From the NCBI RefSeq assembly GCF_041276405.1, contig NZ_JBGGGT010000002.1:2083001-2147000 (forward strand): a stretch of 64,000 nucleotides of DNA. Reading direction: 5' to 3'. This DNA comes from Microvirga sp. TS319. GTDB lineage: Bacteria; Pseudomonadota; Alphaproteobacteria; Rhizobiales; Beijerinckiaceae. Both the position numbers and the translations under genes were made by a program. The notes beneath the pieces were generated by a model that saw only the letters and a program-made list of their open reading frames with translations, was not told where the DNA came from and ran no database searches. Shown here in pieces: positions 14,316 through 28,181 of the stretch (its first letter is position 1; the number at the start of each line of letters is the position of its first letter).

Positions 14316-14328
14316 GTGGCGGAGGGGG
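14316..14328. repeat. Left attachment-site core (attL)
   Basis: GTGGCGGAGGGGG is identical to 28169-28181 at the 3' end of tRNA-Ser. In the uninterrupted chromosome the sequence left of this point would have followed the tRNA directly. Identity stops after 13 bases. The core is G-rich, so a chance match cannot be excluded, but its place beside the integrase and opposite the tRNA supports it. Confidence 0.6.
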
Positions 14329-14462
14329 TGTCCGTAGAACTATCGTCCGAGCGTGTTCATTAATGTTCGCCATTGCTAGCTTTAATCCTTTATATAGAGC
14401 GCTTTAGCCGCAAACACGGTTGAGCGCGTTCATTGTAGTTCACCTCAAGCCATGATAAAAGA

Positions 14463-14483
14463 TAGGACCGAAACTAGGACCAA
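14463..14483. promoter_or_regulatory. Left arm-type integrase site (candidate)
   Basis: A 21-bp sequence made of two TAGGACC units separated by GAAAC and followed by AA. It matches 28096-28116 at the other end of the island at 20 of 21 positions in the same orientation. It lies 17 bp before the integrase start and about 135 bp inside the left att core. Paired short direct repeats near both ends are what arm-type binding sites of tyrosine integrases look like; binding here could also let the integrase control its own gene. Confidence 0.55.
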
Positions 14484-14500
14484 TTGGCGAAGGGGCGGCA

Positions 14501-15739
14501 ATGGCGAGGCAACTGCACAAGCTGACCGCGCGGACGGTCGAAGCGCTGACAAAGCCGGGGCGGCATAGCGACGGAGGCGGTCTCTACTTGAAGGTGCGCC
14601 CGAATGGCTCTCGGGCATGGGTGTTTTTCTACAAGTTCGGTGGCCGACAGAAGGAAATGGGTCTTGGTCCATTCCTGCCAACCAAACCCGAGCGGGGCCG
14701 AACCTATAACTACGTCACGCTGGCTGATGCACGTGCCAAGGCGGCTTCTGCTCGTGAAGCCCTCGCTGCTGGTCGCGATCCGATGTCCATGCGGGAACCG
14801 GAGGAAATTCCGACATTCGGGAAATTCGCAGACGATCTGGTTGATGAAATCCAGGATGGCTTCCGTAATGAGAAGCATAGGGCACAGTGGAAAACCACAC
14901 TAGGCGACACGTACTGCCGAGCGATGCGCAAAAAGCCGATCAACGAAGTTTGCACTGACGATGTTTTGGAGGTTCTGAAGCCACTCTGGCAAACAAGGCA
15001 GGAGACTGCCTCTCGTATCCGTGGGCGCATCGAGCGTGTTCTTGATGCCGCCAAAGCTAAGGGACACAGGGCAGGGGAAAACCCGGCGCGCTGGCGCGGC
15101 CATCTCGACACTCTGCTGGCAAAACGCCAGAAGCTCCAGCGCGGCCATCATTCTGCTATGCCATACGATAAAGTGCAGGCGTTCATGTCCGATCTCGCAA
15201 GTCGTAACGCAGTTGCAGCTCTGGGCCTTCGCTTCTTAATCCTAACTGCAGCGCGCTCTGGCGAGGTGCTCTATGCCAGATGGGACGAATTTGATCTTGA
15301 TGCTGCTCTATGGACAGTACCCGCCGAGCGGATGAAGGCAGGAAGGGCGCATCGTGTTCCGCTCTCTGAAGAAGCGCTCGCCATAGTGAGAACGTTAGCA
15401 GAGAACCGCGTCTCCGATTACGTGTTTCCGGGGCACAAGCGCGAACGCCCGTTAAGCAATATGGCCTTCGCCATGCTTCTGCGCCGTATGAAGCTCGGAC
15501 AATTCACAGCTCACGGCTTTCGCTCTGCTTTTAGAGACTGGGCCGCCGAGGAAACCCACTATCCTCGCGAGATTGCCGAAGCGGCTCTGGCCCACGTCGT
15601 TGGGGACGCAACTGAGCGCGCTTACCGGCGTGGCGATGCACTAGAGAAGAGGCGTTCGCTTATGCGGGATTGGGCCGCGTATATCGTGTCCAAGTCCACC
15701 GATAGCGTTACAAAATTCGCGGATCATGTTCACGCTTAG
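14501..15739 (+). CDS. P4-type tyrosine integrase
   Basis: A 412-residue site-specific recombinase that should insert and excise the island at tRNA-Ser. It has the DUF4102 N-terminal domain (LTARTVEALTKPGRHSDGGG, LYLKVRPNGSRAWVFFYKFG), a central SAM-like core-binding part and a C-terminal catalytic domain with arginine in LTAARSGEVLYARWDEFD, HGFRSAFRDWAAE for the His-x-x-Arg box, and the tyrosine in ATERAYRRGDALEKR. Length and domain order are normal for the family. A ribosome site, AGGGGCGG, lies just before ATG 14501. It is the first gene inside the left end. Confidence 0.95.
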   Translation: MARQLHKLTARTVEALTKPGRHSDGGGLYLKVRPNGSRAWVFFYKFGGRQKEMGLGPFLPTKPERGRTYNYVTLADARAKAASAREALAAGRDPMSMREPEEIPTFGKFADDLVDEIQDGFRNEKHRAQWKTTLGDTYCRAMRKKPINEVCTDDVLEVLKPLWQTRQETASRIRGRIERVLDAAKAKGHRAGENPARWRGHLDTLLAKRQKLQRGHHSAMPYDKVQAFMSDLASRNAVAALGLRFLILTAARSGEVLYARWDEFDLDAALWTVPAERMKAGRAHRVPLSEEALAIVRTLAENRVSDYVFPGHKRERPLSNMAFAMLLRRMKLGQFTAHGFRSAFRDWAAEETHYPREIAEAALAHVVGDATERAYRRGDALEKRRSLMRDWAAYIVSKSTDSVTKFADHVHA

Positions 15740-15844
15740 ACTGCCACGAACTCCCTCGAAACCGTGCATTTTCAGGCGAGTGGTGAAAACAACCATTCGG
15801 TCCCTAGCGTGGCTCAGCTTCCTCCAAGACGAAAGGCTGAGCAA

Positions 15845-16030
15845 ATGGAAAACAAGTTTCTTCTGAGCGTCGATGAAGTCATGGCCGCCACTGGCCTCGG
15901 CAGAACAACAATCTTCTCACTGTTCAAGTCGGGAAAGCTCAAGGCGGTCAAGATCGGCGCGCGGACATTCGTGCGACCTGAAGACCTCCGCACCTTCATT
16001 GATGCTGCGGCCGAGCGCTCCGCTGCTTGA
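15845..16030 (+). CDS. AlpA-like helix-turn-helix regulator / excisionase
   Basis: A 61-residue protein with an AlpA/MerR-type winged helix: LLSVDEVMAATGLGRTTIFS, then LKAVKIGARTFVRPEDL. In phage islands such proteins switch on excision or the operon beside the integrase. The start is ATG 15845, preceded by AAAGGCTGAG; the longer frame from 15764 has no ribosome site. It follows the integrase by about 100 bp on the same strand. Confidence 0.8.
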   Translation: MENKFLLSVDEVMAATGLGRTTIFSLFKSGKLKAVKIGARTFVRPEDLRTFIDAAAERSAA

Positions 16031-16054
16031 GCCTTAAGAGAGCAAGTCGAAAGA

Positions 16055-16573
16055 ATGACGAAATTCCCCCCGATCCGCACCATCACCAACAATATCGAGC
16101 GTGTGACCTTCGCACTTTGCTGTACCAATGAAATCCAGCCGGAAGGTTCGATGCTAACGGCTATAGCAATAGCAACATCGAACTGCCCAATCTTCGCTAT
16201 GACCGACGATGATGGTCCGATCTCAATCGCCATTTGCAGCCTTCCGTTGCCGGGACTTGCGCGCCGCCTACGGTTCATCTGGACCGTGCCGGGATATCGC
16301 GGCAAAGGGCATAGTCTCGCGCTTGCCCGTCACGTGGCCCGAAGTGCTCCGCATGTGGGCGTCGCGGTAAGGAGCAAGGCCGAGCGGCGACTTGCCAAAA
16401 GGGCAGGCTTCACGCATTGGCGGCGTGTGCCCGGCGAAAAGGGGCATTGGGCAGGCGCGACAACAATCGAAGCATTTGAACTGAAGTTCGCGCATCCGGA
16501 GCCCACGCCAGCCCTGATTGCAGATGCGCTACGCGCCTTCTCGGCGGCGCAGCTCCAGGTATGGCGTGGATAG
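16055..16573 (+). CDS. GNAT-like acyltransferase fold protein (tentative)
   Basis: A 172-residue protein. The segment FIWTVPGYRGKGHSLALARH resembles the acetyl-CoA loop of GNAT enzymes (R/Q-x-x-G-x-G) with the following helix, and VGVAVRSKAERRLAKRAGFT fits the strand/helix with the late GF. The first 60 residues are not recognised. Phage GNAT-fold proteins include base modifiers such as Mu Mom, but nothing here proves that role. It follows the AlpA-like gene by 24 bp and probably shares its transcript. Confidence 0.6.
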   Translation: MTKFPPIRTITNNIERVTFALCCTNEIQPEGSMLTAIAIATSNCPIFAMTDDDGPISIAICSLPLPGLARRLRFIWTVPGYRGKGHSLALARHVARSAPHVGVAVRSKAERRLAKRAGFTHWRRVPGEKGHWAGATTIEAFELKFAHPEPTPALIADALRAFSAAQLQVWRG

Positions 16574-16614
16574 TAGAGGTCGCGTTTAAACGGCTGATGC
16601 CGAGTACACCATGA

Positions 16615-16694
16615 CAACAAAAAGCCCCGTTGAGGGACGGGGCTCTCTGAAACTTCAACCGTGGAGGCAGTCGAAGCTATGATTTATCTGGAAT
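16615..16694 (-). ncRNA. Candidate small RNA with its own promoter and terminator
   Basis: Read on the minus strand, TTGACG (16729-16724), a 17-bp spacer and AATGAT (16706-16701) form a good promoter. About 80 nt later a strong hairpin followed by TTTTT ends the unit at about 16615. No open frame of note lies between. The transcript would be antisense to the leader of the zinc-ribbon gene that starts at 16743. This is a sequence-pattern call only. Confidence 0.35.
16623..16644 (-). terminator. Intrinsic terminator hairpin (minus strand)
   Basis: AGCCCCGT-TGAGGG-ACGGGGCT is a perfect 8-bp stem. On the minus strand it is followed by TTTTTGTTGT, the U tract of a rho-independent terminator. On the plus strand no T run follows, so it points left, although no minus-strand protein gene lies to its right; see the small RNA candidate. 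Confidence 0.6.
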
Positions 16695-16723
16695 GTTGTG
16701 ATCATTGCAACAAACACTGCCTC
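16663..16723. repeat. Nested inverted repeats in the leader of the zinc-ribbon gene
   Basis: GGAGGCAGT at 16663-16671 pairs with ACTGCCTCC at 16715-16723. Inside lies a second pair, TGTTG / CAACA, around 16694-16712. Together they could form a long hairpin just before the gene at 16743, or act as protein-binding half-sites. Confidence 0.45.
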
Positions 16724-16742
16724 CGTCAAGACATGAGGCAGC

Positions 16743-17183
16743 ATGTACGTCGTCTATTTCTACAAGACTGGCGAAAAGGTCATTCGCACTATCTCGGACA
16801 TCGGCGCTATCCCGACGCTCGCCGAACCGCATAAAGGCGCGCTGGGTTGCTGGAACTGTGGTGCCCCGGCGTCCTGGTCGTTCGAGACCCAGGATAAGAT
16901 CGATATCGAGTGTAGCGACTGTGGCTCGCAGATGATCGTTGCGCAGGGGTGTGTAAGAACGATCTCGCAGACACCAGAGGGCACGTTGGTCGCACGTCGC
17001 TCACAGATTGTCCCGGACCATTATCAGAACTGTGAAGTGCTACCGAATGGCGACTTGGTGCTCCTCCCAAGTTCTGGAGATCCCGATTTCCACCCAGCTA
17101 CGCACGATCCAATTGGTTGTACGCCTATGGAGCTATTGCGAGAAACGGCAGCGCTGCGCTCTAAGACGAGGGCGCGGACATGA
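16743..17183 (+). CDS. Small zinc-ribbon protein, unknown role
   Basis: A 146-residue soluble protein with one likely zinc ribbon: CWNCG near residue 37 and ECSDCG near 58. The rest matches nothing recognised. Its stop overlaps the start of the helicase-like gene by 4 bp (ATGA), so the two are translationally coupled and probably act together, perhaps in island replication. It begins right after a structured leader. Confidence 0.65.
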   Translation: MYVVYFYKTGEKVIRTISDIGAIPTLAEPHKGALGCWNCGAPASWSFETQDKIDIECSDCGSQMIVAQGCVRTISQTPEGTLVARRSQIVPDHYQNCEVLPNGDLVLLPSSGDPDFHPATHDPIGCTPMELLRETAALRSKTRART

Positions 17184-18967
17184 GGCCGTACACATTTGAA
17201 GATTGGAGGTTGGGAAAGCCGCTTCCGAGATCATGGGACGCTGCCGACGCGGTTGACGACGGCTGGAGCAAGGACGATCTCGACAACTTCATGCGCGCCA
17301 CGGTGCGGCCTTGGTCGCCGGACCTGGAGCAGACGCCTCCTCCTACGTCGAAGGAGGAGCCATTAGAGCGGTCCCTGCCGTCTGCCAGTCACCCCGGTCC
17401 CATCGCGGGCCCTGTAAGCGACAGTTCACTCCTCACCCACCAGCCTAAGCCAGTGATCCAGTATGTTGACTGCGAGTTGCCTCGCATCGTGAACATGGCT
17501 TGCGAGGAGGCGGTGAAAGCTGATGCCCAGCTATACGCCCGTGGTACATCGCTAGTCCGCCCTGTCACCATCTACGGCACGACCACCAGCCGAGGCGTGA
17601 AGCGAGCGGAAGGCGCGACGGTCCTCGTTCCGGTCGAAAAGCCCGCCTTGGTCGAGGTCCTGACGAGCTTGATTGACTGGCAGCGGTTTGACGGCCGTAA
17701 GACCGATTGGAAGCCTGTTGCTTGCCCGCCGGTCGTCGCAGATACGATCCTCGCCCGCCGTGGCGATTGGCCGTTCCACCAGTTGAATGCGGTTGTCTCC
17801 GCGCCAACGATGCGGCCTGACGGTACGATCCTGAATGTGCCGGGCTTCGATTACGAAACAGGAATCCTATTCGCCTCTGAGCTGACATGGCCGCAAGTGC
17901 CGGATCGCCCTACGATGGAAGAGGCGTCAGATGCCCTCGGGCATCTCGAGGATCTGGTCGAGGACTTTCCGTTCGTAGACGCGTCAGATCGCGCAGCGGC
18001 CCTTGCGATGATCCTTACCGCTCTCGCCCGTCCTTGCCTGCCGTCCGCCCCGATGTTCTGTGTGAATGCTCCGACGCCCGGGACGGGGAAGAGCAAGCTG
18101 GTTGATATCGCCGCGATCCTCGCGACCGGCCAAACGGCCTCCGTCCTATCTGCGCCCCGTGAGGAGGCCGAGATGCAGAAGCAACTCGGGGCCACCCTGA
18201 TGGCAGGAGATGCCTTCATTACCCTCGATAATATCGAGTATCCGCTTCGCTCAGAATTCCTCTGTCAGGTGCTCACGCAAGGCTCTGTAGCGGTGCGGGT
18301 GCTGGGGGAGAGCCGCACGTTGAAACTACCAACCTGTGCGACGTTCTGCGCAACGGGCAACAGCTTGCGCATTGCCGGGGATCTGACCCGGCGCGTGGTG
18401 ATGATCAACCTGGACGCGGGCATGGAGCGGCCTGAGGAGCGCGTGTTCGACGTGGATGTCCTTGAGACGGCGAGGAGGCAGCGCGTTCGCCTCGTGACGG
18501 CGGCTCTGACCATCCTTCGCGCCTTCGTGGCGCACAGAGCCCCCAAGATCGTTCCGGCCTTGGGCTCGTTTGAAGGCTGGTCAAACCTCGTACGCTCGGC
18601 TCTGATGTGGCTGGGCAAGGCCGATCCTCTCGGCAATACCGAGAAGGTGCGTGAGAACGATCCGGAGCGAGAGAGGACAGCCTCAATCCTCTCCGCCCTG
18701 CCTGCTGGCAAGGATTGGACCGCCGCCGAGATCGGAAAGAAGATCCAGCAGAGGCCCGGACTGGACGCAGAGGACGCAGAGGTCCGAGAGCATGAGGCGC
18801 TTGCTGAAGCGCTCGGGGAGTTCATGGAACGCAACGGGCAGTTCAATGCGGTCCGGTTCGGTCACTTTCTCAGAAAGCACATGGGGCGGATCATCGACGG
18901 CAAGCGGATCGTGAGCCGAGGGAAAGACCGTAACAAAATTGCTATGTGGGCTGTTGAAGACATCTAA
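17180..18967 (+). CDS. Replication-type ATPase/helicase-like protein of the island
   Basis: A 595-residue protein. The C-terminal half has a P-loop, NAPTPGTGKSKLVDIAA (near residue 300), a Walker-B-like AFITLDNIEYP, and TCATFCATGNSLRIAGDL with an arginine-rich RRVVMINLD, as in primase-linked or superfamily-3-like helicases of phages and islands. The end (WTAAEIGKKIQQ, VRFGHFLRKHMGRIIDGKRI) looks like a winged-helix DNA-binding part. No prim-pol catalytic residues were recognised in the first 200 residues, which include a proline-rich linker. It probably unwinds the island origin. A 4-bp overlap links it to the zinc-ribbon gene. Confidence 0.7.
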   Translation: MRPYTFEDWRLGKPLPRSWDAADAVDDGWSKDDLDNFMRATVRPWSPDLEQTPPPTSKEEPLERSLPSASHPGPIAGPVSDSSLLTHQPKPVIQYVDCELPRIVNMACEEAVKADAQLYARGTSLVRPVTIYGTTTSRGVKRAEGATVLVPVEKPALVEVLTSLIDWQRFDGRKTDWKPVACPPVVADTILARRGDWPFHQLNAVVSAPTMRPDGTILNVPGFDYETGILFASELTWPQVPDRPTMEEASDALGHLEDLVEDFPFVDASDRAAALAMILTALARPCLPSAPMFCVNAPTPGTGKSKLVDIAAILATGQTASVLSAPREEAEMQKQLGATLMAGDAFITLDNIEYPLRSEFLCQVLTQGSVAVRVLGESRTLKLPTCATFCATGNSLRIAGDLTRRVVMINLDAGMERPEERVFDVDVLETARRQRVRLVTAALTILRAFVAHRAPKIVPALGSFEGWSNLVRSALMWLGKADPLGNTEKVRENDPERERTASILSALPAGKDWTAAEIGKKIQQRPGLDAEDAEVREHEALAEALGEFMERNGQFNAVRFGHFLRKHMGRIIDGKRIVSRGKDRNKIAMWAVEDI

Positions 18968-19036: not shown

Positions 19037-20143
19037 ATGCAGTATGACGCTATTACCCTGGATACGAACATCTTTGTCGCCGATGGGCTGAGGCTGGAAA
19101 GCGGTATCCTCGCGCAGATGTCACAGTTCAAGTCACGCTCGGAAAAGATCATCCTCTCTGAGGTAGTTCTGCGTGAGGTGACGCAAAAGCTGCAGGAGCG
19201 CGCTGGTGAAGCGAGGAGGGATCTCAAGAAAGCTCTCCGAGCGGCCTCAACAAGTGGAATAATCGACAGCGGCAAAGCCGATGATCTTCAGAAGCTTTAT
19301 GATTTGGCCCTGCCGGAAGGCGATGCCGCTGAGGCGAGGATCAAGCAGTTCCAGCAGGCAACCGGTTTTGAGACCATAACATCTAGAGATGTGGAGGTGT
19401 CTGACCTGGTAGATATGTATTTCGGACTTAAGCCTCCATTCGAAAAGTCCGAAGCGAAGAAGGCAGAGTTCCCCGACGCTATTGCTCTGATCTCTATCAA
19501 CGAATGGGCTAAGGCGCATGGCTTGAAAGTTTTGGCCATCTCGCTTGATGAGGGATGGAAGCGGTACGCTGAAGGATCCGAGTTCCTTGATGTTGAAGGT
19601 GATCTCTCTAGAGCTTTAGCGACCTTCCAGGAGCATACTGAGCGAGCTCAGAAATTCCTTGAGGAACTGCTACAGGCCCTGGCTAGAAACGAACAGCCGG
19701 AGATGATGGGCCAGATTGTAGATGAGCTTGCTGACGATGTGGGCGCATTAAGTCCCTATCCCGAGGCCGTTACCCCGTTTGAATGTGATATCGACCAAGT
19801 AGACTTGGCTTTCACAGATTTCACCTTCAACTCGGATGAGGTGATACTCGTGAACGTCGGCAGAGAGGAGATTGTTGCGAAGGTTGGGATTGAGGTCGAG
19901 GCAAGAGCTGAGGCAAGCTATTCGCTTTCGATCCGGGACTCGATCGACAATGATTATGTCTCCATCGGAGGCGGGTCGGTCGACGTTCCAGTAAAATTCA
20001 AGGCTTCTGCTCTTCTCACCCTCATAGGGCCATTTGGTGAGAGGCCCGAGGAAGTTGAGATTGACCGGATCGAGCTGGTAGATGCGCCGAGGTATATCAA
20101 CCTAGGAGTAATCGACATCTTTGAGGCGGAATATGAAGAGTGA
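19037..20143 (+). CDS. PIN-domain putative ribonuclease (DUF4935-like)
   Basis: A 368-residue protein. The first 190 residues form a PIN nuclease domain: first acidic residue in ITLDTNIFVADG, then LSEVVLREVTQKL, FPDAIALISINEW and VLAISLDEGWKRYA give the expected metal-binding acidic residues. The remaining 170 residues, with many short beta strands (YVSIGGGSVDVPVKF), are unknown. PIN proteins of this size occur as lone genes in mobile islands and may cut RNA or tRNA on infection; there is no small antitoxin beside it, so a simple VapBC pair is unlikely. The start ATG 19037 follows GGCGGA. Confidence 0.7.
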   Translation: MQYDAITLDTNIFVADGLRLESGILAQMSQFKSRSEKIILSEVVLREVTQKLQERAGEARRDLKKALRAASTSGIIDSGKADDLQKLYDLALPEGDAAEARIKQFQQATGFETITSRDVEVSDLVDMYFGLKPPFEKSEAKKAEFPDAIALISINEWAKAHGLKVLAISLDEGWKRYAEGSEFLDVEGDLSRALATFQEHTERAQKFLEELLQALARNEQPEMMGQIVDELADDVGALSPYPEAVTPFECDIDQVDLAFTDFTFNSDEVILVNVGREEIVAKVGIEVEARAEASYSLSIRDSIDNDYVSIGGGSVDVPVKFKASALLTLIGPFGERPEEVEIDRIELVDAPRYINLGVIDIFEAEYEE

Positions 20144-20415: not shown

Positions 20416-20844
20416 TCATTTTATATCGGGCTCATCAGTCTCAGGTTTCGGTTGCCATTGCGCTTTGACCTTCAGGCGGCAGTAATCCATCACGAGACAG
20501 TGAAATAAGATTGCGGCAATTGCAGACCCGCTGAAGCTAAGCGCCTCCCTGGTTGATACCCATTCTCCGTCATTTATGCTGCCCCAGCTCTTGGGCATCC
20601 ATGAAAGGCCAGTATAGAAACCGCTATAGGCGAACACGCCGTAGCCGATGAACGCTGCGGCGACGACCGCGTAGTCGCGTTTACGCGGATAAAGTCCCCT
20701 GAGCCCTTCGGGCGGGGCAATCTCATTGCACATAACAAGGAGCCTTTGCGGATTGCTCCAGGATATCCATAGGGCCCAGACGGCAGCGATGACCGGAACG
20801 GCGTAAACCAAACCCAGCACGATGGCAGCGATCTTAGGTGACAT
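20416..20844 (-). CDS. Small membrane protein, unknown
   Basis: A 142-residue protein with three likely membrane helices: IAAIVLGLVYAVPVIAAVWA, YAVVAAAFIGYGVFAYSGFY and ALSFSGSAIAAILFHCLVMD. No family is recognised. It is the first of two minus-strand genes in the island, opposite to the phage-structural run, as lysogeny or exclusion genes often are; that role is only a guess. ATG 20844 is preceded by GAGAG; GTG at 20850 is an alternative start. Confidence 0.55.
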   Translation of the reverse strand: MSPKIAAIVLGLVYAVPVIAAVWALWISWSNPQRLLVMCNEIAPPEGLRGLYPRKRDYAVVAAAFIGYGVFAYSGFYTGLSWMPKSWGSINDGEWVSTREALSFSGSAIAAILFHCLVMDYCRLKVKAQWQPKPETDEPDIK

Positions 20845-20882
20845 GCGCACTCTCTCAGTCAGCGGCGGAGGGAGCGTATGCT

Positions 20883-21023
20883 ATGCCCGAGAAGCCATCA
20901 AGGCGTGGCCCAATGTCAGTGAGTGGTGGCCTCAACCTTTCGCGTGGGAAACCAGAGGGCAACGTAGTAAAACGTAGGCTGGCCCAACTGGATGACCCCG
21001 AAACAGGCGCGTTTCGTAGATGA
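20883..21023 (+). CDS. Possible 46-residue protein ahead of the small terminase
   Basis: ATG at 20883 follows a strong ribosome site, GGAGGGAGC, and opens a 46-residue frame (MPEKPSRRGPMSVSGGLN...) that ends 32 bp inside the terminase gene in another frame. The product is basic and glycine-rich with no known domain. Its main role may be to load ribosomes for the terminase gene. The overlap and short length make it uncertain. Confidence 0.35.
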   Translation: MPEKPSRRGPMSVSGGLNLSRGKPEGNVVKRRLAQLDDPETGAFRR

Positions 21024-21807
21024 ATACCTTGTGGATCTGAACGGCGCTCAGGCCGTGATCCGCGCCGGGTACTCTCCAAAGAACCCTGATGTGCAGGCGG
21101 CTCAGCTCTTTGCGCGGCCAGAGATCGTCGCCGCAATCCAAGACGCGATGAGCAAGCGCGCGGACAGGCTGGAGATCACCTCTGAACGCGTCCTGGAAGA
21201 GATCGCAGCCATGGCGTTCTACGACCCAGCTGATCTCATGGTCGATGTCGAACCAGAAGAGGGGGAGGAGAATAGCCCACTCGTCGTTAATGGCCGCACG
21301 GTCCTCGGTCTGCGCGGTCCTCATGACATTCAGCGCCTGCCGGAAAACGTTCGCCGCGCAATCGTCGGCTGGGGCTATGACCGCAACCAGAACTTCACGG
21401 TGAAGCTGGCGGACAAATCGAAGGCGCTCGATCAGCTCGCGCGTCACCTGTCCCTCTACAACGACAAGCTGGCAATTGACGGGCTCGATAGTTTGGCTGA
21501 GCGCCTGGCGCGAGCGTCCAAACGGGGAGAGCGGGAACCTGCCCCTGTCTCGCCCGCGTCTATACCGGACTCTACACCGCATCCGCTGCATGAGCGCCTG
21601 CGTCGTGTCACGGCGCACGAAAGCCGTGTGCCCGCACCCAAAGGCGATTGGGAGCCCCCGAAGGCGCAGAGGCCTAACCCGGAGCAACCCAAGCCCCCTC
21701 AGTATCAACCCATCCTGCCGGTCTCGTGGCTAACACAGAGCGGTCAGGTCGATGTTGAGTACGACCCAAGCGCTGGCTTCCCCGACTACACCCGAAAGCA
21801 CAAGTGA
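20992..21807 (+). CDS. Phage terminase small subunit
   Basis: A 271-residue DNA-recognition subunit of a phage packaging enzyme. The N-terminal helix-turn-helix unit is typical of the Terminase_2 family: MTPKQARFVDEYLVDL, GAQAVIRAGYSPKNPDVQA, and RPEIVAAIQDAMSKRAD. The middle (VLEEIAAMAFYDPADLM, KLADKSKALDQLARHLSLY) also follows the family. The last 90 residues are proline-rich and end in FPDYTRKHK. It should bind pac or cos DNA and hand it to a large subunit, but no large-subunit gene is present in the island. An in-frame stop at 20968-20970 rules out a longer start. Confidence 0.9.
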   Translation: MTPKQARFVDEYLVDLNGAQAVIRAGYSPKNPDVQAAQLFARPEIVAAIQDAMSKRADRLEITSERVLEEIAAMAFYDPADLMVDVEPEEGEENSPLVVNGRTVLGLRGPHDIQRLPENVRRAIVGWGYDRNQNFTVKLADKSKALDQLARHLSLYNDKLAIDGLDSLAERLARASKRGEREPAPVSPASIPDSTPHPLHERLRRVTAHESRVPAPKGDWEPPKAQRPNPEQPKPPQYQPILPVSWLTQSGQVDVEYDPSAGFPDYTRKHK

Positions 21808-21818
21808 AAGGCTCTCCA

Positions 21819-22112
21819 ATGGCAACAGTCTCTCAGCATGCGGCCGCCATCGTGGCCCTGGCACAACAGGCGGATGGCCTCGTCAGCCAGTTCCGCCAGT
21901 TAATGGCTAACATCGAAGCCGAGGAAGCTGCTCTCGTAAAAGAGGCACGGATGGGCGGAGTTGATATGGCGTCCGACGCTATCGCCGGACGTCGCAGGCT
22001 CGGCCACTACGCCCACTTGCTGGCTGGGTATCCTGCCGGGGCAGCGCTTCCGCGAGAACATTCAAAAACTGTGACTGAACTTGCGACCTACGTTTGGTCG
22101 GAATTCCTTTGA
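21819..22112 (+). CDS. Short helical phage protein, unknown
   Basis: A 97-residue mostly helical protein (ATVSQHAAAIVALAQQADGL...). No family is recognised. ATG 21819 has AAAGG upstream; a GTG at 21804 would overlap the terminase stop. It lies 11 bp after the terminase gene and is followed 9 bp later by the next gene, in a compact structural-gene run. Confidence 0.6.
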   Translation: MATVSQHAAAIVALAQQADGLVSQFRQLMANIEAEEAALVKEARMGGVDMASDAIAGRRRLGHYAHLLAGYPAGAALPREHSKTVTELATYVWSEFL

Positions 22113-22121
22113 GGTGCAGCC

Positions 22122-22721
22122 GTGACCGATACCAAAGCAACTTACACGCCCGCTAGCTCTGCCCACATCAGCGGGCAGCTTTCCGCTCTTGCGTCCGTTC
22201 TGAGGGGCCTTGAGCATGAGGCGGCAACGCTCTCACTTTCAGCCGTCAGCGGCGACCAAGAGGCTGCACGGCGGCTGGCGGAGATCCGCGCGAAACTCGA
22301 TGGCGCTCGGGCTGATCGTGTCGTCTTGGAAACTGCCCGCAAGCAAGCGCTCCAAGCTGAAGCAGATGCCTTTGTCGCTGCGGCGACTAATGGCAAAGCC
22401 CGGCGCTTGGCTGAAGCACGGGAGAACGCCGAACGCCTGCTTGTCACTGCCAGTACGGCCGATGCCTTGATTTCGGATCTGAAGGCAGTCCTTGCGGATC
22501 TGAACAGGACCGAAGCGGACGTGTGGACCTCGTTGCGTCTTGCCCATGTGATGCCTCCCGGTGAACTCATTGGCCGCAAGGGAATCTCCAGGCACGTTGT
22601 GGACACCCTCAAGGCCTTTGCGGACGGGCGGGACAACTTCCGCAACGACAAACGTACGACCTCAGAGGTTGCCGAAATCGGCTGGAATTTCCTGCTTGAA
22701 GACGAAGAGGAGGCCGCGTGA
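22122..22721 (+). CDS. Coiled-coil phage protein, unknown
   Basis: A 199-residue protein dominated by alanine-, leucine- and arginine-rich helices (residues 10-130, for example EAARRLAEIRAKLDGARADR), likely a coiled coil. No enzyme motif is seen. The GTG start follows GAGGTG. Its stop overlaps the next start (TGATG). In this position of a podovirus-like run such proteins are often virion or assembly factors; that is an inference. Confidence 0.6.
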   Translation: MTDTKATYTPASSAHISGQLSALASVLRGLEHEAATLSLSAVSGDQEAARRLAEIRAKLDGARADRVVLETARKQALQAEADAFVAAATNGKARRLAEARENAERLLVTASTADALISDLKAVLADLNRTEADVWTSLRLAHVMPPGELIGRKGISRHVVDTLKAFADGRDNFRNDKRTTSEVAEIGWNFLLEDEEEAA

Positions 22722-23323
22722 TGCCTGAGTTTGATGCGGCCTCCGTTCTCTTCCCCAACGACACTCCGTCGAAGCCAATCGAGGTGCCGGACGGTCCGGT
22801 ACAGGTCCATCGGGCCGAGCAGCGGCTTGCGACCGATCCCGCCCGCGACAATGCAGGAGACACTGCCAGTCAGCTTTTCAGCACGGAAGGAAAGCCTTTC
22901 GAGGGCGGCGCTGTGACGGACTTCTTTGACGGGTTTGCCCTTTCCGCTGCCGGAGACGGCGACACGGATAGAGCCAGCGCATTGCAATCTGCCAGTGAGG
23001 CCCTGGTGTCCGACTTCAAATCTGCTGGAACTGACAGCGCCGATCTGGCGGAAGCGTTTGCCATCGTTAAGGAACGGCAAGCCGACACGATGGCCGGTCC
23101 CGTCTCGGCTGAAAAGCTGCAAGAGGATTTCGCCTCAGCCATGGCATCACTTGAAACAGATGGCGTCACTATCGCCGATATCGACCTTGCCCGGCGTTTC
23201 GTGGCCGATCTCGAAAGAAAGGCACCTGGCACCATGGCTAGCCTTGAGGCAACGGGGGCAGGCAACGACCCCCGACTGATCCGCAAGGCGATTTCTGAGG
23301 CGAAGCGCAGAGGCTATCGATGA
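22721..23323 (+). CDS. Possible scaffold-like phage protein
   Basis: A 200-residue acidic protein. The end, TGAGNDPRLIRKAISEAKRR, resembles the GxGNxPxxIR tail common in phage head scaffolding and capsid-linked proteins; the rest is low in recognisable motifs. ATG 22721 is coupled to the upstream stop and preceded by GAGGAGG. If it is a scaffold, its capsid partner is missing from the island. Confidence 0.4.
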   Translation: MPEFDAASVLFPNDTPSKPIEVPDGPVQVHRAEQRLATDPARDNAGDTASQLFSTEGKPFEGGAVTDFFDGFALSAAGDGDTDRASALQSASEALVSDFKSAGTDSADLAEAFAIVKERQADTMAGPVSAEKLQEDFASAMASLETDGVTIADIDLARRFVADLERKAPGTMASLEATGAGNDPRLIRKAISEAKRRGYR

Positions 23324-23391
23324 CCGCATGGTTGTGCACCTTCGCGTCCTTCGCTCTCATCATCGTCGTGATCCTAGGATTGCTGCCATGA
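23320..23391 (+). CDS. 23-residue membrane microprotein coupled at both ends
   Basis: The frame MTAWLCTFASFALIIVVI... ends in LGLLP and is a single hydrophobic helix. Its ATG overlaps the previous stop (ATGA at 23320-23323) and its stop overlaps the next start (ATGA at 23388-23391). Such exact double coupling is unlikely by chance and argues that it is translated. Function unknown. Confidence 0.5.
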   Translation: MTAWLCTFASFALIIVVILGLLP

Positions 23392-23726
23392 CCGATCATC
23401 TCGTCAGCGTTCCGTGCCCGTGCTGCAAGCAGCCGGTGAACGCTCCATCGCTGGATATTGTGATCGACCATTACGGGTTGCGACCATTAGAGGGGCGCGT
23501 TCTCTCCGCGATCTGGCGCGGCAAGGGCATGCCCGTCATGGCGGAAAGAGTTTTCGACATAATGTATGCGGATGCCCCGGACGGCGGCCCAGAACCGTCG
23601 CGTATGTATGCGGCCTTCAAGGTCTCCCTGTGCCACGTTCGGCAGAAGCTCAAGGGGTCCGGTATCTCTATCGAGAGCGTGGGATACCGTAGAGGCTTCC
23701 GCCTTCAGATTTCCACGAAAGGTTAG
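23388..23726 (+). CDS. Zinc-finger plus winged-helix DNA-binding protein
   Basis: A 112-residue protein. CPCCKQPV near residue 10 is half of a zinc site. The rest looks like an OmpR/PhoB-type winged helix: LEGRVLSAIWRGKGMPVMAE, RMYAAFKVSLCHVRQKLKGS and IESVGYRRGFRLQI end in the usual wing. There is no receiver domain, so it is a stand-alone DNA binder, possibly a late-gene regulator. The start is ATG 23388, in a 4-bp overlap with the microprotein. Confidence 0.65.
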   Translation: MTDHLVSVPCPCCKQPVNAPSLDIVIDHYGLRPLEGRVLSAIWRGKGMPVMAERVFDIMYADAPDGGPEPSRMYAAFKVSLCHVRQKLKGSGISIESVGYRRGFRLQISTKG

Positions 23727-23729
23727 CCC

Positions 23730-24200
23730 ATGGCCGGTCCTGACATCCAGATCGTTCTAGCCCGCGCCTGCCATATCCGAACCATCGCCCGACGCATGCG
23801 CAAGGCGGATCGTGAGGAGGTGTTTGCGGCCTCGGGTAAATCACCTGCCGGGGCCCTGATCTATTCCCTGCGCAAGTCGGCACATGCCTGGACGGCGTTA
23901 GTAGACGGCAGGCCCGAAGTTATGTTTGGCGTCGGGGATATCTCGGTCATCGGCGGCGTCGGTGCGCCCTGGCTTCTCGGGACGGATGCCGTCGAAACTC
24001 ACTATGTCGCCTTCCTGCGCCGGTCGGTCGATTTCAGAGATCAACTATTCCGACGCTATCCAATCATGAGGAATTTCGTGGATGACCGGAACAAGGCGTC
24101 CAAGCGGTGGCTGCAATGGCTCGGCGCTCGGATGACTGATCCAGTCGAAATGGGCGGGCATCCATTCCGCCTCTTTGAATTGAGGTCTGCCAATGTGTGA
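23730..24200 (+). CDS. Internal virion protein A-like (DUF2833-type)
   Basis: A 156-residue protein of the type found before internal core proteins in podoviruses. Recognisable parts are HIRTIARRMRKADREEVFAA, the hydrophobic MFGVGDISVIGGVGAPWLLG, VAFLRRSVDFRDQLFRRYP and NKASKRWLQWLGARM, which follow a GNAT-like fold. In T7-like phages the matching protein (gp13) helps build the internal core. Here it overlaps the next gene by 8 bp, in the usual phage order. Confidence 0.7.
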   Translation: MAGPDIQIVLARACHIRTIARRMRKADREEVFAASGKSPAGALIYSLRKSAHAWTALVDGRPEVMFGVGDISVIGGVGAPWLLGTDAVETHYVAFLRRSVDFRDQLFRRYPIMRNFVDDRNKASKRWLQWLGARMTDPVEMGGHPFRLFELRSANV

Positions 24201-24735
24201 ACTGACTGCTATCCTGACGCTCGGCTCTACCCTCTTAGGAGCAGCCGGCCAAATTCAGCAGGCCAACGCGACCGCTGCAGCAAGCAAGTACAACGCCCAG
24301 GTCGCCGAGATGAACTCCCAGATTGCGGAGAACCGCGCCAAGTCCACCATCGAGGCGGGCGCTCGGGACGAGCAAATGAAGCGCCAACAGGTTCAGCAGG
24401 TCCTGGGCCAACAACAGGCAGGCATGGCAGCCAATGGCGTAGATCTGACGTTTGGTTCTCCGCTCGATACCATTACGGACACGGCAGTCCTTGGCGAGCT
24501 GGACGCCCTGACGATCCGCACGAACACCTACCGCGAGGCATACAATGCCCGCGTCGATGCGGCCAACCAGCGGGCGGGCGCGGAACTCTATCGCGGACAG
24601 GCAAAGTCGGCCCAGTCAGGCGGATACATTGGTGCGTTCGGAACGATCCTAGGCGGGGCTGGCAAGGCTTACGGACAATACAAGAAACCCGGCTCCGCTC
24701 CGTATGGATCTGGCGGCGTCGGCACATACTATTGA
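24193..24735 (+). CDS. Internal virion protein B-like
   Basis: A 180-residue protein with a short hydrophobic start (LTAILTLGSTLLGAAGQIQQ), a long glutamine/alanine-rich helix and a glycine-rich end (GAFGTILGGAGKAYGQYKK). This pattern and the place after the protein A-like gene match the gp14-type internal virion proteins of podoviruses, which enter the cell envelope during DNA ejection. It is followed by a broken third internal-protein gene. Confidence 0.6.
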   Translation: MCELTAILTLGSTLLGAAGQIQQANATAAASKYNAQVAEMNSQIAENRAKSTIEAGARDEQMKRQQVQQVLGQQQAGMAANGVDLTFGSPLDTITDTAVLGELDALTIRTNTYREAYNARVDAANQRAGAELYRGQAKSAQSGGYIGAFGTILGGAGKAYGQYKKPGSAPYGSGGVGTYY

Positions 24736-24745
24736 GGATAAAAAC

Positions 24746-24851
24746 TTGGTCACAGTCCCTACCTATCAGCGGAACGTCTCGCTTCGTCTACAGGCCAGGG
24801 GATTGACGTGCGAGCCTCGCCGGAAGCCTTTGGCGCGGATGTCGGATGCGC
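24746..24851 (+). pseudogene. Broken 5' end of a third internal virion protein gene
   Basis: GAGGATAAAAAC lies before a TTG at 24746, which opens VTVPTYQRNVSLR. Near 24790 the sense moves to another frame, where GQGIDVRASPEAFGADVG continues. Both pieces together look like the start of a gp15-type internal protein. After about 35 codons the homology ends where the convergent gene at 24851 begins. So the large third core gene was frameshifted and cut away. Confidence 0.5.
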
Positions 24852-25369
24852 TACTCCTCAGACGGCATCCATGGCTTCAGCGGGCTCCTTGAATAAAATA
24901 CCTTAACCGTCCCTTTGCAGTTGTCGCAGGCGTAAGTCGAGTATTCACCTCTTCCCCCTCTTGGTGTCGTGTCCTGCCCCTTGAACTGAAGGAACGACTT
25001 TTGTCGCCTACTGAAACAATTGGCGCATAGCCAATGAGGAGGCTCGCCGCTCTCCATTCCTGGCTTGAGCATATAAGCGAATGATCCACGGTCGATAGGC
25101 TTTAGCTCGTAGCGCTGCTTCTCACTTTCCCAGTCTTTAAGCTGCATAACCTCTTGTTCAAGGTCGCGGATTCGCTGCAGGGCCACCGTTTGCGCGTCTT
25201 GTGCTGCCGCAAGTGCCTCGCGGGCTTCGAAGATCCGTTCCTGGAGGTCGAGCTTAACTTCATTGATGGCCGCCAGCGTGTTGGCGGCATTTAGGCCCTT
25301 CACGATGTCCGTCGCCGCCTTGAGGCTGCTAAGGCCTGCGGTGATCTCTGCAAGCATACTGTTCCCCAT
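24851..25369 (-). CDS. Coiled-coil / zinc-ribbon protein, unknown
   Basis: A 172-residue protein of a type seen repeatedly in proteobacterial genomes and islands. A helical first half (LNAANTLAAINEVKLDLQER, then QRIRDLEQEVMQLKDWESEK) is followed by a treble-clef-like zinc ribbon with CANC and CDNC about 35 residues apart. The start is ATG 25369 because the family begins with the short MGNSMLAEI-type segment; an ATG at 25477 gives an unlikely extension. Its direction is opposite to the phage run, and it shares a divergent promoter region with the gene at 25682. Confidence 0.6.
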   Translation of the reverse strand: MGNSMLAEITAGLSSLKAATDIVKGLNAANTLAAINEVKLDLQERIFEAREALAAAQDAQTVALQRIRDLEQEVMQLKDWESEKQRYELKPIDRGSFAYMLKPGMESGEPPHWLCANCFSRRQKSFLQFKGQDTTPRGGRGEYSTYACDNCKGTVKVFYSRSPLKPWMPSEE

Positions 25370-25681
25370 ATGAATTATCAGCGCGTTCAGCGTAGGACAC
25401 TTTTCTAAGCCTGTCTCCCTCGTCCTCCTGAGTAGCAGAAGTATGAAGCGGCCTATTTCAAGCATCCGCACCGGCACTGAGCATGCGCCATAGCGCTAAT
25501 GTGCGTTACGACAGAACATTCCGTAGGTGTGGTGTTGTTAAGATTGCAGTACCATTGTTAAAAGCTCAACATGTTGCGATTAACGCTTCTCATGTTGCGT
25601 TTTTACTGTCTATTAAGAGAGTGTATATTTGCTATTATTCTAGGGTATTGGCGGTTTTATCAGAAATACGCGAGGCAAGAC
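25370..25681. promoter_or_regulatory. A/T-rich divergent promoter region with paired direct repeats
   Basis: This is the most A/T-rich part of the island. CATGTTGCG occurs at 25570-25578 and again at 25591-25599, starts 21 bp apart (two helical turns), and the first copy sits in the palindrome AACATGTT. A possible -10, TATTAT, lies at 25633-25638 for the plus-strand genes. It looks like a two-site operator controlling both directions, but no repressor is identified. Confidence 0.45.
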
Positions 25682-25927
25682 ATGAAAGTGCTTGATATTG
25701 TCCCTCTGGGGCGCTCTCTTGATCGGGAAGCAATGAAGGCGAAGGCTGCAATCGAGGCCATTCCAGAAGACATCAGCGTCGATGATGAGTTTTGGATGAT
25801 CCAAGCGGCGAGCACCGCTGCTGCCGACATTGCCCAGCGGATCGCTGCTATGTCGCCCAGGAACAAGCGGGAGGCCGCCGTTCACGCGAGAGCGGCAGCT
25901 TGGCTCGAAGGCACGTACTGGGGGTGA
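25682..25927 (+). CDS. 81-residue protein ahead of the PrtN-like gene, unknown
   Basis: A helical protein (VLDIVPLGRSLDREAMKAKA..., ending AAAWLEGTYWG) without a known domain. ATG 25682 follows GAGGCAAGAC. Three bases separate its stop from the PrtN-like start at 25931, so they form one unit behind the divergent promoter. Confidence 0.55.
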   Translation: MKVLDIVPLGRSLDREAMKAKAAIEAIPEDISVDDEFWMIQAASTAAADIAQRIAAMSPRNKREAAVHARAAAWLEGTYWG

Positions 25928-25930
25928 GCA

Positions 25931-26203
25931 ATGAACACGAACACTACATTTCTTCTAATGGCACAGTATAACGGCAAGGCTGTGATTTCTGTGGAAGAAG
26001 TCTGTCGCGACTATTTCAGCCACCTGACGCCGGTCCAGTTCGTCCGCAAGGCGACTGAGGGGAAAATCGACCTGCCCGTCATCATGATCGAGGGGAGCCA
26101 GAAGGCCGCGCGAGGTGTCTACCTCGCCGACCTCGCGGCCTGGATCGATAAGCGGCGAGAGGCGGCAAAGAAAGAAAACGACCAGCTCCAGGGGCGGCGT
26201 TAA
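25931..26203 (+). CDS. PrtN-like pyocin/phage gene activator
   Basis: A 90-residue DNA-binding protein of the PrtN family: FLLMAQYNGKAVISVEEVCR, DYFSHLTPVQFVRKATEGKI, and VIMIEGSQKAARGVYLADLA are conserved in order. In Pseudomonas PrtN turns on pyocin genes after DNA damage. Here it may activate the phage-structural run of the island. Length is normal. It lies in the same unit as the 81-residue gene upstream. Confidence 0.85.
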   Translation: MNTNTTFLLMAQYNGKAVISVEEVCRDYFSHLTPVQFVRKATEGKIDLPVIMIEGSQKAARGVYLADLAAWIDKRREAAKKENDQLQGRR

Positions 26204-26576
26204 GGCTCGTTCGCTGCGCCGCCGTTGGCCTCCCCACCTGACCCGTCGATTTGTCTAGTGAGGTCGCCGGTGGAGCCTCTCTGAACAGGTTGTGGCTGAC
26301 AACCTGTGTTACTTTGCAACTTGCGCGTTCGCGAAGTGTTTGAGCGGGCAGTAGAATCTTGTTACGTCTTTGATATTGTCCAGCTGTCGCGGACGTGCAG
26401 ATCGAGGCCCATCGGTACGTATTCGACACTCGGGCGCTGCCGGTTTAGCCCTCATGTGTATGCCCGTACGTGCAACGGATGGGGATCATCGGGGATCGAA
26501 AGACCGGCAGAAATCCAAGAACAACAAAATGGGGGGCGGCCGCATAGGTCTCGGACGAGACCCGGCTGAATAATGA
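26204..26576. other. Noncoding gap with two hairpins
   Basis: ACAGGTTGT-GGCTG-ACAACCTGT at 26285-26307 is a perfect 9-bp stem about 80 bp after the PrtN-like gene and may slow or end transcription. GGTCTCG-GA-CGAGACC at 26547-26562 lies 14 bp before the next start. The rest shows no gene. The gap probably holds the promoter of the two-gene module downstream. Confidence 0.5.
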
Positions 26577-27419
26577 ATGCGCTTTGACTTGATCCGGCTA
26601 ATGCTTCTCGTGCGGCAGCAAGGCCACTTTTGGGAAGCTCGGAATCCGGACGGGAGCCTGCCGACGCGCGAAGAATGGCTCCGCATGGTTTTTTCTCGAC
26701 GCATCGATTTTGATCATCGTGGAGCGAGATACTCCTTCGTTCCTGCTCAGCCGAGCCTCGCGGCAGCTGTATCTGGCATGGTCACTGGCAAAGTCGGTCG
26801 CCAACGGGTCGTGAAAGAAAACGAGCCACCAGACCAAGGTCTCGAAGAGACCGAGCGGGAGCAATGGAAGGCTGTAGAGATTGTGGTTGACCCCCGAGCC
26901 CACGACGATGGTCAGAAGGCTGCGCTTGCTTTCGACAAGGACGTGGGACAACCGCTCGCCCTCATGCGAGCCTTGGCCGACGCATTAAACAGCCGCCTCC
27001 CGCCAGCGCCTTATGTGATCGAGGCAAATGGTATCGTTGACCCAAACACGTTCTGGCATTTCGTTCAGGAAAACGAAGGGGAGATTACTTCAGTAACATT
27101 CGAGCTCGTTGCACCGAATATGTTCGGCATTCGGAACGATCTCGATAGAGAAATGAGGGAATTGAGAGAGAATGAAAAGGCGAGGAAGGCTAAATTTACC
27201 TTGCAGAATGAGGACGGTCTTCATCTAACGACCGATCGCGTTAGAGAAACAGCCAACTACACCGCTGAAGGCGGCGGCAACATTGCCGCTCGGACCAAAA
27301 AGGGGAAACGTTTTAATTCTAAGAACAAGACAAAATCCGCCATAATTTCGGATGCGGAAATGGACGGCGAAGATCAACCCTCACGCTTCAGACGTATTAT
27401 TCAGGCAATATTTGACTGA
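26577..27419 (+). CDS. Soluble partner of an unknown two-gene module
   Basis: A 280-residue protein of no family I can name with confidence. Residues 1-60 (FDLIRLMLLVRQQGHFWEAR, RIDFDHRGARYSFVPAQPSL) look like a compact alpha/beta start. The middle holds IEANGIVDPNTFWHFVQENE and ITSVTFELVAPNMFGIRNDL. After a charged helix the end is rich in glycine and lysine (AEGGGNIAARTKKGKRF). The pattern faintly recalls DUF4747-type proteins of mobile elements, but this is not secure. Its stop overlaps the next start (TGATG), so it works with the membrane protein that follows. Confidence 0.6.
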   Translation: MRFDLIRLMLLVRQQGHFWEARNPDGSLPTREEWLRMVFSRRIDFDHRGARYSFVPAQPSLAAAVSGMVTGKVGRQRVVKENEPPDQGLEETEREQWKAVEIVVDPRAHDDGQKAALAFDKDVGQPLALMRALADALNSRLPPAPYVIEANGIVDPNTFWHFVQENEGEITSVTFELVAPNMFGIRNDLDREMRELRENEKARKAKFTLQNEDGLHLTTDRVRETANYTAEGGGNIAARTKKGKRFNSKNKTKSAIISDAEMDGEDQPSRFRRIIQAIFD

Positions 27420-27892
27420 TGAGCACAAGCATCGCATATTGCATTCTGATCTGCTTTGCCGCGATAATAGTGGTTCTTTCTATCGGTGCGCCGAACGTGC
27501 TAGCCGATAGCAATAGCTTCCTCAGCAGCTTCGTAGGTGCAGAACTGCTTAATATCCTCGGAGTGATCGTTGCGATCACTCTGGCATCCGCAGCACAGAT
27601 GCACCTCGCCCTCAATGGCATTGAGGAGCGCTTTAATAGGCGCAACTCCTTTGTTGCTACACGCGCCGGGATTAGGGCTGGCTCCTATACGCTTATTATT
27701 TTGTTCGCTGCTGCGTTTCTTCTTGTTGTTGCCAAGCCCCACGTTGCAACAACGGCATGGTCCCAATCGCTCGTGAATGGAGCGGCGATATTTATAGTCC
27801 TTTGGAATGTTTTGGTCCTGGTGGCGCTCACACAAGGTGTTTTCGCGCTTGGGCCAACATTGAAAGACGAAGGCGGCCCTCACGAAGGCTAA
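27419..27892 (+). CDS. Four-helix membrane partner of the two-gene module
   Basis: A 157-residue membrane protein with four likely helices: AYCILICFAAIIVVLSIGAP, LLNILGVIVAITLASAAQMH, GSYTLIILFAAAFLLVVAKP and NGAAIFIVLWNVLVLVALTQ. No family is recognised. It is coupled by one base to the soluble partner and is the last gene before the right end of the island. A soluble sensor-like protein plus a small multi-helix membrane protein at an island edge is a layout shared by several phage-defence systems; nothing here proves that role. Confidence 0.6.
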   Translation: MSTSIAYCILICFAAIIVVLSIGAPNVLADSNSFLSSFVGAELLNILGVIVAITLASAAQMHLALNGIEERFNRRNSFVATRAGIRAGSYTLIILFAAAFLLVVAKPHVATTAWSQSLVNGAAIFIVLWNVLVLVALTQGVFALGPTLKDEGGPHEG

Positions 27893-28095
27893 CTTGGCAG
27901 AGATCCGGCCTCCGCTCCGCATCGACCCTGCACAAAGGTCCTAGGCCGAATGCCTTCTAGGCCTAGCCTTCGAATCGGGAAATCCCATTCAACTGCCCGG
28001 CAGTGACCGGCAAGAAGGTCCCTAGTCTCAGCTTTCTCAAGTGCAACTATGTAGCCCTGACGGATGTTGTGAAGGTCACAACAGATCCCATTCAC

Positions 28096-28116
28096 TAGGA
28101 CCTAAACTAGGACCAA
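28096..28116. promoter_or_regulatory. Right arm-type integrase site (candidate)
   Basis: Two TAGGACC units separated by TAAAC and followed by AA. It is the same 21-bp sequence as at 14463-14483 with one change, in the same orientation. It lies 52 bp inside the right att core. The paired occurrence at both island ends is the main support. Confidence 0.55.
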
Positions 28117-28168
28117 AACGCCGACACGAGAACATCTGTCTTTAAATTCAATTACTTCCGTGCGAGCC

Positions 28169-28181
28169 GTGGCGGAGGGGG
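28169..28181. repeat. Right attachment-site core (attR) in the tRNA-Ser 3' end
   Basis: GTGGCGGAGGGGG covers the discriminator, the 3' strand of the acceptor stem and four bases beyond the tRNA. It is identical to 14316-14328. The island lies on the 3' side of the tRNA, so the tRNA gene stays whole. Confidence 0.6.

Follow-up and report, generated by a model that had tools for sequence, protein, structure and literature searches.

According to current descriptions, phage satellites redirect packaging and capsid size or else form capsids, and the capsid-forming phage-inducible chromosomal islands (PICIs) make capsids of their own. PICIs have been placed in Firmicutes and Gammaproteobacteria in one account (PMC10803314), and satellites are described as lacking structural-protein genes in another (PMC13376191). 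A 64,000-nt stretch of the genome of Microvirga sp. TS319 (hereafter the window) was analyzed, and the 13.9-kb island at its positions 14316-28181, a bounded unit at the 3' end of a tRNA-Ser gene, was compared with these systems. The island is probably an integrated satellite, acting by the mechanism proposed below, of a family that parasitizes podoviruses of Alphaproteobacteria, a helper-type group that we take to be the epsilon15/BPP-1-like podoviruses. The family is apparently undescribed. Its satellite status is well supported by the comparison of loci; the helper, the excision and packaging of the element and the change in capsid are predictions from its genes. The features that bear directly on this reading are as follows.

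14316..14328, no strand: left attachment repeat, GTGGCGGAGGGGG, exact 13-nt repeat
14501..15739, plus: P4-type tyrosine integrase (Pfam Phage_integrase, Arm-DNA-bind_3; PHROG; 70% identical to the L110 integrase)
15845..16030, plus: AlpA-like excisionase/regulator (HTH_17 1e-9; phrog_66 7e-8; AlpA 20.4 bits, cut-off 21)
17180..18967, plus: replication helicase/ATPase (phrog_29234 2e-127, the match beginning at position 354 of 887)
20992..21807, plus: small terminase (TerS), podovirus-like body and proline-rich C-terminal tail (Terminase_2 5e-31)
21804..22112, plus: g102, cassette protein (tblastn matches in 8 of 10 satellite loci)
22122..22721, plus: g199, cassette protein (9 of the 10 satellite loci, all but L113, whose stretch starts at g201)
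22718..23323, plus: g201, scaffold-related, with N-terminal LFPND peptide (hhalign, motif, large protein search)
23328..23726, plus: winged-helix-like regulator (57-70% to open reading frames (ORFs) on four podovirus contigs; 9 of the 10 satellite loci, L111 being the exception)
23730..24200, plus: gp13-like internal virion protein (phrog_308 1e-38; up to 74% to podoviruses)
24193..24735, plus: gp14-like ejection protein (T7_gp14 6e-9; phrog_418 2e-32; up to 71% to podoviruses)
24745..24865, plus: gp15 remnant, broken, with recognizable start only (by eye; tblastn E 1e-4)
28169..28181, no strand: right attachment repeat, at the tRNA-Ser 3' end, exact 13-nt repeat

The exact 13-nt repeat starts at 14316 and 28169, and its right copy overlaps the 3' terminus of the minus-strand tRNA-Ser(tga) gene at 28170-28259. 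The G+C content per kb was 51-61% across 14-28 kb compared with mostly 61-69% outside. The repeats and the Pfam and PHROG matches agree with an initial annotation, made from the sequence alone, that had described a 13.9-kb tRNA-Ser unit with an integrase, an AlpA-like protein, a helicase and an intact terS. The AlpA-like protein was scanned from 15839, two codons 5' of the ATG at 15845. The helicase lacks the N-terminal part of its family phrog_29234 and represents the helicase part only. The frames from 20992 to 24735, which had been reported as intact and overlapping, were all open, with 4-nt overlaps between terS and g102 and between g199 and g201 and an 8-nt overlap between gp13 and gp14. 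Of the few virion genes that had been noted, gp13 and gp14 were intact, but the third (gp15) was only a remnant at ~24745-24865, in which the likeness is split over two reading frames and the remainder of the gene is gone. The winged-helix-like protein had no Pfam or PHROG match, and its domain assignment is our own reading.

In order to find relatives, an 18-protein alignment of g201 was searched against GTDB genomes, and ten loci were obtained. One of these (L119; 32% over ~100 residues), presumably from an actinobacterium, was dropped as unrelated before counting. The nine loci kept (L110-L118) were from Hyphomicrobiaceae, Xanthobacter, Mesorhizobium (two), Bradyrhizobium, Hyphomicrobium, Roseinatronobacter and Hyphomicrobiales (two), and all of these alphaproteobacterial loci contained all or part of a cassette in the order terS-g102-g199-g201-winged helix. 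Genes were counted by tblastn at E 1e-3 over these loci and the window (n = 10). g201 was present in all ten loci, g199 in nine (the L113 stretch starts at g201), g102 in eight (not L113 or L118), TerS in nine (not L113), the winged-helix gene in nine (not L111), a PrtN-like gene in eight (not L113 or L118), and the integrase gene in seven (not in the examined stretch of L113, L115 or L116). All four of terS-g102-g199-g201 were found in eight loci.

The integrases, replication genes and insertion sites vary between members while the cassette stays. The replication gene is of phrog_29234 in the window, L110 and L112, of the primase type phrog_6088 in L111, L117 and L118, of phrog_906 in L114, and of phrog_256 in L116; PHROG scans covered 10 L111 proteins and its gp16-type protein, 9 proteins of L112, and selected proteins of L110 and L113-L118. 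The ends of three further elements were located: a 14-nt repeat at tRNA-Ala in L111 (17.2 kb; the left copy falls within the start of the integrase gene as called mechanically), a 14-nt repeat at tRNA-Ser(cga) in L117 (17.2 kb), and a 45-nt repeat at tRNA-Arg in L118 (7.8 kb).

The absence of the large terminase (TerL), portal, capsid and tail from the island, noted in the initial annotation, was borne out by tblastn, in which terL, portal, scaffold, capsid, tailA and tailB of related podoviruses gave no match in the island. Furthermore, no other head gene appeared in Pfam and PHROG scans of the window proteins. Podovirus-type terL, portal, capsid, tailA and tailB were detected in none of the ten satellite loci (tblastn E 1e-3), whereas the same search of three podovirus control loci revealed portal, capsid, scaffold, tailA and tailB in all three and terL in two (the L151 stretch begins at portal). 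In the helper-type phages the gene order is terL-portal-scaffold-capsid-tailA-tailB-gp13-gp14-gp15-gp16-tail fibre, and terS precedes terL. Their portal is ~41% identical to those of Bordetella phage BPP-1 and epsilon15-like phages. Among 19 helper-type records, 16 had TerL matches and 14 were 45.7-48.8 kb long, none being rated 90% complete.

These data bear on the possibility that the island is a podovirus prophage reduced by deletion, which by chance kept terS, gp13 and gp14. The three genes are podovirus-like, the gp15 remnant lies directly after gp14, and podoviruses show the order gp13-gp14-gp15 3' of terS-terL, as such an origin would predict. On the other hand, open genes fill the interval from terS to gp13, and the window g102 and g199, which matched nothing in the podovirus loci compared, recur in satellites of other genera; independent deletions would not repeatedly yield one cassette beside different entry genes. 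Because the cassette recurs without podovirus head or tail-tube genes in loci of several genera that differ in integrase, replication genes and insertion site, the satellite reading is the stronger, and the deleted prophage, which we regard as highly improbable, was rejected as the main explanation since the cassette recurs without terL, portal or capsid. A search for the same gene order in other genomes had been proposed in the initial annotation, and relatives in which terL, portal and capsid genes all lie between terS and the genes for internal proteins had been named as the sign of a deleted prophage; all or part of the order was found in the nine other loci, and the full set was sought in them and not found. 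The concern about a reduced prophage is partly borne out for this copy, whose gp15 is broken.

Eight of the nine satellite TerS proteins end in a proline-rich tail with the pattern Y-x-P-[IL]-[ILM]-[PQ]...[DEG]-[YF]-[DEN], which the L117 TerS lacks. This pattern was present in 13 of the 11,270 ORFs of all loci, and every one was a satellite TerS (duplicate loci included). The closest podovirus TerS proteins (L022 and L024; 188-194 aa) end before the tail, and the tail was absent from all 15 further podovirus TerS frames (175-260 aa). In L110 and L118 it is joined to a different TerS body, phrog_15261 (in L110 also phrog_641). Since the tail is kept while TerS bodies are exchanged, these results suggest that it has a common partner, which may be the helper TerL or another satellite protein.

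Profile comparison indicated that g201 is distantly related to the podovirus scaffolding protein. hhalign of g201 (18 rows) against podovirus scaffolds (6 rows) gave a probability of 92% (E 6e-7), and larger alignments (61 and 28 rows) gave 91% (E 1e-6); the alignment is centred on GAGNDPRLIR in one and GGGNHPELIR in the other. PHROG 3742 was common to the L118 g201 (9e-6) and the L014 scaffold (3e-17), and phrog_458, the best PHROG of the L014 scaffold, gave a weak, non-significant match to the window g201 (0.067). By tblastn, a scaffold query weakly matched one satellite (L116, 5e-4) and a g201 query matched one podovirus (L164, 3e-4). In addition, an LFPND-type pattern, A-x-[VIL]-[LI]-[FY]-P-[NSDKT]-[DE], was found in 30 of 8,895 distinct ORF products (20 scaffolds, 8 g201 proteins and 2 small podovirus proteins), a descriptive count because the pattern was derived from these same sequences. 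The strict pattern is missing in 12 of the 32 scaffolds and in the satellites L113 (cut) and L118; by eye, 30 of the 32 scaffolds end in some form of the peptide (not L174 and L018). In an AlphaFold2 model of g201 (mean pLDDT 83.7), the N-terminus is of low confidence, with short helices at 8-11, corresponding to the peptide, and at 50-53, and the residues from about 61 onward form a confidently modelled helical domain.

In SaPI1, CpmB and the 80alpha scaffold are reported to have a common RIIK motif and the same site on the coat protein, the shell changing from T=7 to T=4 (PMC6893505). By analogy with CpmB, we infer that g201 may work by mimicry of a scaffold motif. Alternatively, g201 might block helper assembly instead of making small shells, and the satellite DNA would then travel as concatemers inside full-size heads, like that of PICMI elements. 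A mimic of the scaffold peptide could be an inhibitor, and the elements with located ends (7.8-17.2 kb) would be awkward for a single small shell size. Size-redirecting satellites, however, have satellite/phage size ratios akin to that of 13.9-17.2 kb to the ~46-49 kb of the phage contigs, a resemblance that argues indirectly against interference, which we consider an unlikely role for g201.

At least one podovirus-type entry (DNA-injection) gene is carried by nine of the ten members. In addition to gp13 and gp14 in the window, gp15 was found in L110 and L115, gp15 together with a phrog_342-type internal virion protein in L111, L112 and L113, and a giant protein at the gp16 position in L114, L116 and L117, with an LPD22 domain in the two scanned (L114 and L117). 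L115 and L116 carry a podovirus tail-fibre N-terminus joined to other C-termini; in L115 the gene precedes terS near the contig end, and its membership is less sure. In T7, gp14 is reported to form the outer-membrane pore and gp15 and gp16 the periplasmic tunnel (PMC8954989).

The DNA of L114 and L115 is 75% identical through terS-g201 and 82-85% identical at the right end, and differs between these parts. The giant protein gene of L114 is 83-89% identical at the DNA level to the phage loci L137 and L142, and gp15 of L115 is 75-83% identical to L137 and L151. This comparison of DNA indicates that the entry slot is exchanged while the cassette is kept. In trees made by a quick method without bootstrap, from which the window remnant was left out, the satellite gp16 proteins (3 of 23 rows) and gp15 proteins (5 of 42 rows) each fell at three separate places among podovirus sequences, although three changes may also be read as one gain and two losses. 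The labels in the gp15 tree were more clustered than expected by chance (a value as low in 5 of 500 shuffles), and those in the gp16 tree were not (500 of 500).

The entry genes could instead be recombination leftovers or phage-derived cargo without a role in delivery. The broken gp15 of the window, the lack of an entry gene in L118 and the varying subsets of virion genes between members point in this direction. However, the long frames are open (three of three at the gp16 position, 2,212-2,263 aa; five of six gp15-like, 793-1,064 aa, the sixth being the window remnant) and encode proteins 27-67% identical to those of phage L014, and the same functional class occupies the same position while coming from different phage lineages, which makes this explanation a doubtful one. 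The entry proteins might also be mainly anti-defence or size-control factors injected with the DNA. An LPD22 polyvalent-protein domain occurs in the giant proteins of L114 and L117, and internal proteins, including P1 Dar, are described as able to influence capsid size (PMC6893505). In contrast, gp13 and gp14 have no such domain, and CHAP, VanY or lysozyme domains in three of the four gp15-like proteins scanned with Pfam indicate envelope passage. A main role of this kind seems rather improbable.

Taken as satellites, these elements would act as follows. Helper infection would induce excision and replication of the satellite, and the satellite TerS would bring the helper TerL onto satellite DNA. 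g201 would bind the helper coat protein through the LFPND peptide that it has in common with the helper scaffold and change shell assembly, probably toward a smaller shell. The satellite ejection proteins, and in two members also the tail fibres, would enter the particles and aid delivery of the satellite DNA. Since gp15 is broken in the window copy, its delivery would need the helper gp15/gp16, or the element is beginning to decay. We tentatively propose, with a confidence somewhat short of even, that the satellites rebuild the helper particle for entry by a tailed TerS, a scaffold-peptide mimic, and ejection proteins or fibres of their own repeatedly captured from podoviruses; the resulting ejectosome would be satellite-coded or mixed, and delivery could differ from that of the helper.

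Besides the origin of the LFPND pattern and the second reading of the trees given above, several points weigh against this interpretation. The gp15 of the window copy is broken. The likeness between g201 and the scaffold is distant (24% over 93-112 columns, at the probability of 91-92%), the peptide is N-terminal in g201 and C-terminal in the scaffold, and a fold search of BFVD and PDB with the g201 model gave no significant match. No attachment pair was located in L110, L114 or L116, and L112, L113 and L115 are cut by contig ends. The entry module is not essential, since it is missing from L118 (7.8 kb). The genome of L114 (G458) holds one distant portal (25% identity). The four joined cassette proteins matched only the genome of the window among 101 relatives, a g201 profile search of 397 genomes of the order found the window only, and a search of 146 genomes of the genus of L114 with the L115 g201 found only L114 and L115; the first pass of the genome search scores few candidates and may miss members, so that the 397-genome result is not a frequency.

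The helper-type portal was found in one of the ten carrier genomes compared with five of five control genomes or records; thus, in most carriers no resident helper of this kind was detected. In the window genome, neither a helper-type portal nor a capsid was detected (the portal search had five positive controls and the capsid search none), and there was no second gp14; a resident helper was therefore rejected. The helper may arrive from outside the carrier genomes.

Some observations concern phage loci. A helper-type contig (L021:7808-8125 and 10001-10228; the same contig as L144) has in common with the island the winged-helix gene (63%) and the helicase N-terminus (46%). Eight IMG/VR contigs (L002, L004-L007, L011, L012 and L016) carry tailA-tailB-gp13-gp14-gp15 (whole or part)-tail fibre, all starting at tailA, and no head gene was found in their examined stretches; they are possibly tail-only elements or clipped contigs. 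Two genomes belonging to one genus carry two gp14 relatives in tandem (G180:C12:78726-79865, L057; G292:C19:28868-30087, L054). In L110, a 93-aa protein (13459-13740) resembles by eye a protein encoded before tailA in the podovirus virion region (L024:11784-12062; start of L014:4935-6773; PHROG 0.005).

The remaining features of the island are listed below.

14463..14483, plus: 21-nt end repeat, copy 1 (partner at 28096)
16055..16573, plus: GNAT-like protein (weak: Pfam 0.027, phrog_1249 0.001)
16743..17183, plus: small protein, possible zinc ribbon (weak)
19037..20143, plus: PIN-domain protein, cargo (PIN_12 2e-25)
20416..20850, minus: small membrane-like protein (33% to a relative in satellite L117)
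24851..25477, minus: phrog_1244 protein, cargo (phrog_1244 4e-36)
25931..26203, plus: PrtN-like/excisionase protein, right-end marker (PyocinActivator 4e-28; phrog_1300 1e-30; 8 of 10 satellite loci)
26577..27419, plus: cargo protein (ORF)
27419..27892, plus: small cargo protein, membrane-like by eye (ORF)
28096..28116, plus: 21-nt end repeat, copy 2 (95% identical to copy 1)

The 21-nt repeats sit just inside both island ends, with two TAGGACC units in each copy, and are possible integrase arm sites. The PIN_12 and phrog_1244 proteins are apparent cargo and possible defence genes. Psu/Sid/Delta-type proteins, which are marks of P4-like satellites, did not turn up in Pfam and PHROG scans of 19 island proteins. 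In same-genus genomes, tRNA-Ser(tga) was near 19 of 22 rlpA loci (~1.5-kb flanks examined), and island DNA was matched in none of the 22 except for one integrase-like stretch of ~70%. This stretch (L201:41-456), ~70% identical to the island integrase gene, occupies the same rlpA locus in genome G316, where no cassette was detected. The rlpA/tRNA-Ser site may be an insertion hotspot.

A near-mode DNA search of plasmids and phages with the whole island gave no match. g201 was not matched in phage records or plasmids, nor, as a single sequence or as an alignment, in IMG/VR viral contigs, whereas a general protein collection yielded 75 matches including itself (74 others); virus catalogues may therefore overlook such elements. 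For g199, the large protein search gave 3 matches including itself.

No satellite with DNA-ejection proteins of its own was found in the open-licence full-text literature, among the matches listed. If our proposal is true, helper and satellite would compete over delivery itself, and the elements would provide naturally exchanged ejection modules with which to study podovirus ejectosome assembly. The island resembles PICIs in its size range, a protein that is AlpA-like but scores just below the AlpA cut-off, its integrase with attachment repeats at a chromosomal site, its replication gene (helicase part only), TerS without TerL, and the lack of head-assembly and tail-tube genes. It differs from them in the predicted podovirus-type helper, the TerS tail, the alphaproteobacterial hosts, and the podovirus ejection and tail-fibre genes: PICIs are described as carrying no structural genes beyond those redirecting packaging or capsids, whereas gp13 and gp14 are present in the window, and gp15, gp16-position and tail-fibre genes in other members. 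Capsid-forming PICIs likewise encode virion proteins; here these are entry proteins, and a podovirus-type portal, capsid and terL are absent. The epsilon15/BPP-1-like podoviruses (L014, L151, L164) are the source type of the TerS body, gp13-gp16, the tail fibre and the winged-helix gene, but have a full head and tail and no match to g102 or g199. By phage-naming habit, vB_EcoP_Kapi1 is a podovirus. EcCIMP1, a PICI of E. coli, is reported to be mobilized by this phage and, unlike the present elements, is described there as lacking identifiable terminase and capsid-morphogenesis genes (PMC11773190). PICMI of Vibrionaceae are similarly small with an integrase-AlpA-primase core, and L118 (7.8 kb) has integrase, AlpA-like and primase-type genes; however, PICMI are described as integrating at fis and lacking capsid-remodelling genes (PMC10803314), while the island lies at tRNA-Ser. 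With respect to CpmA/CpmB of SaPI1, the RIIK motif that CpmB is reported to have in common with the helper scaffold (PMC6893505) is paralleled by LFPND and the distant C-terminal scaffold likeness in g201, which belongs to another protein family, bears another motif and has a predicted effect on the capsid; if true, g201 would be a further scaffold-motif mimic besides CpmB.

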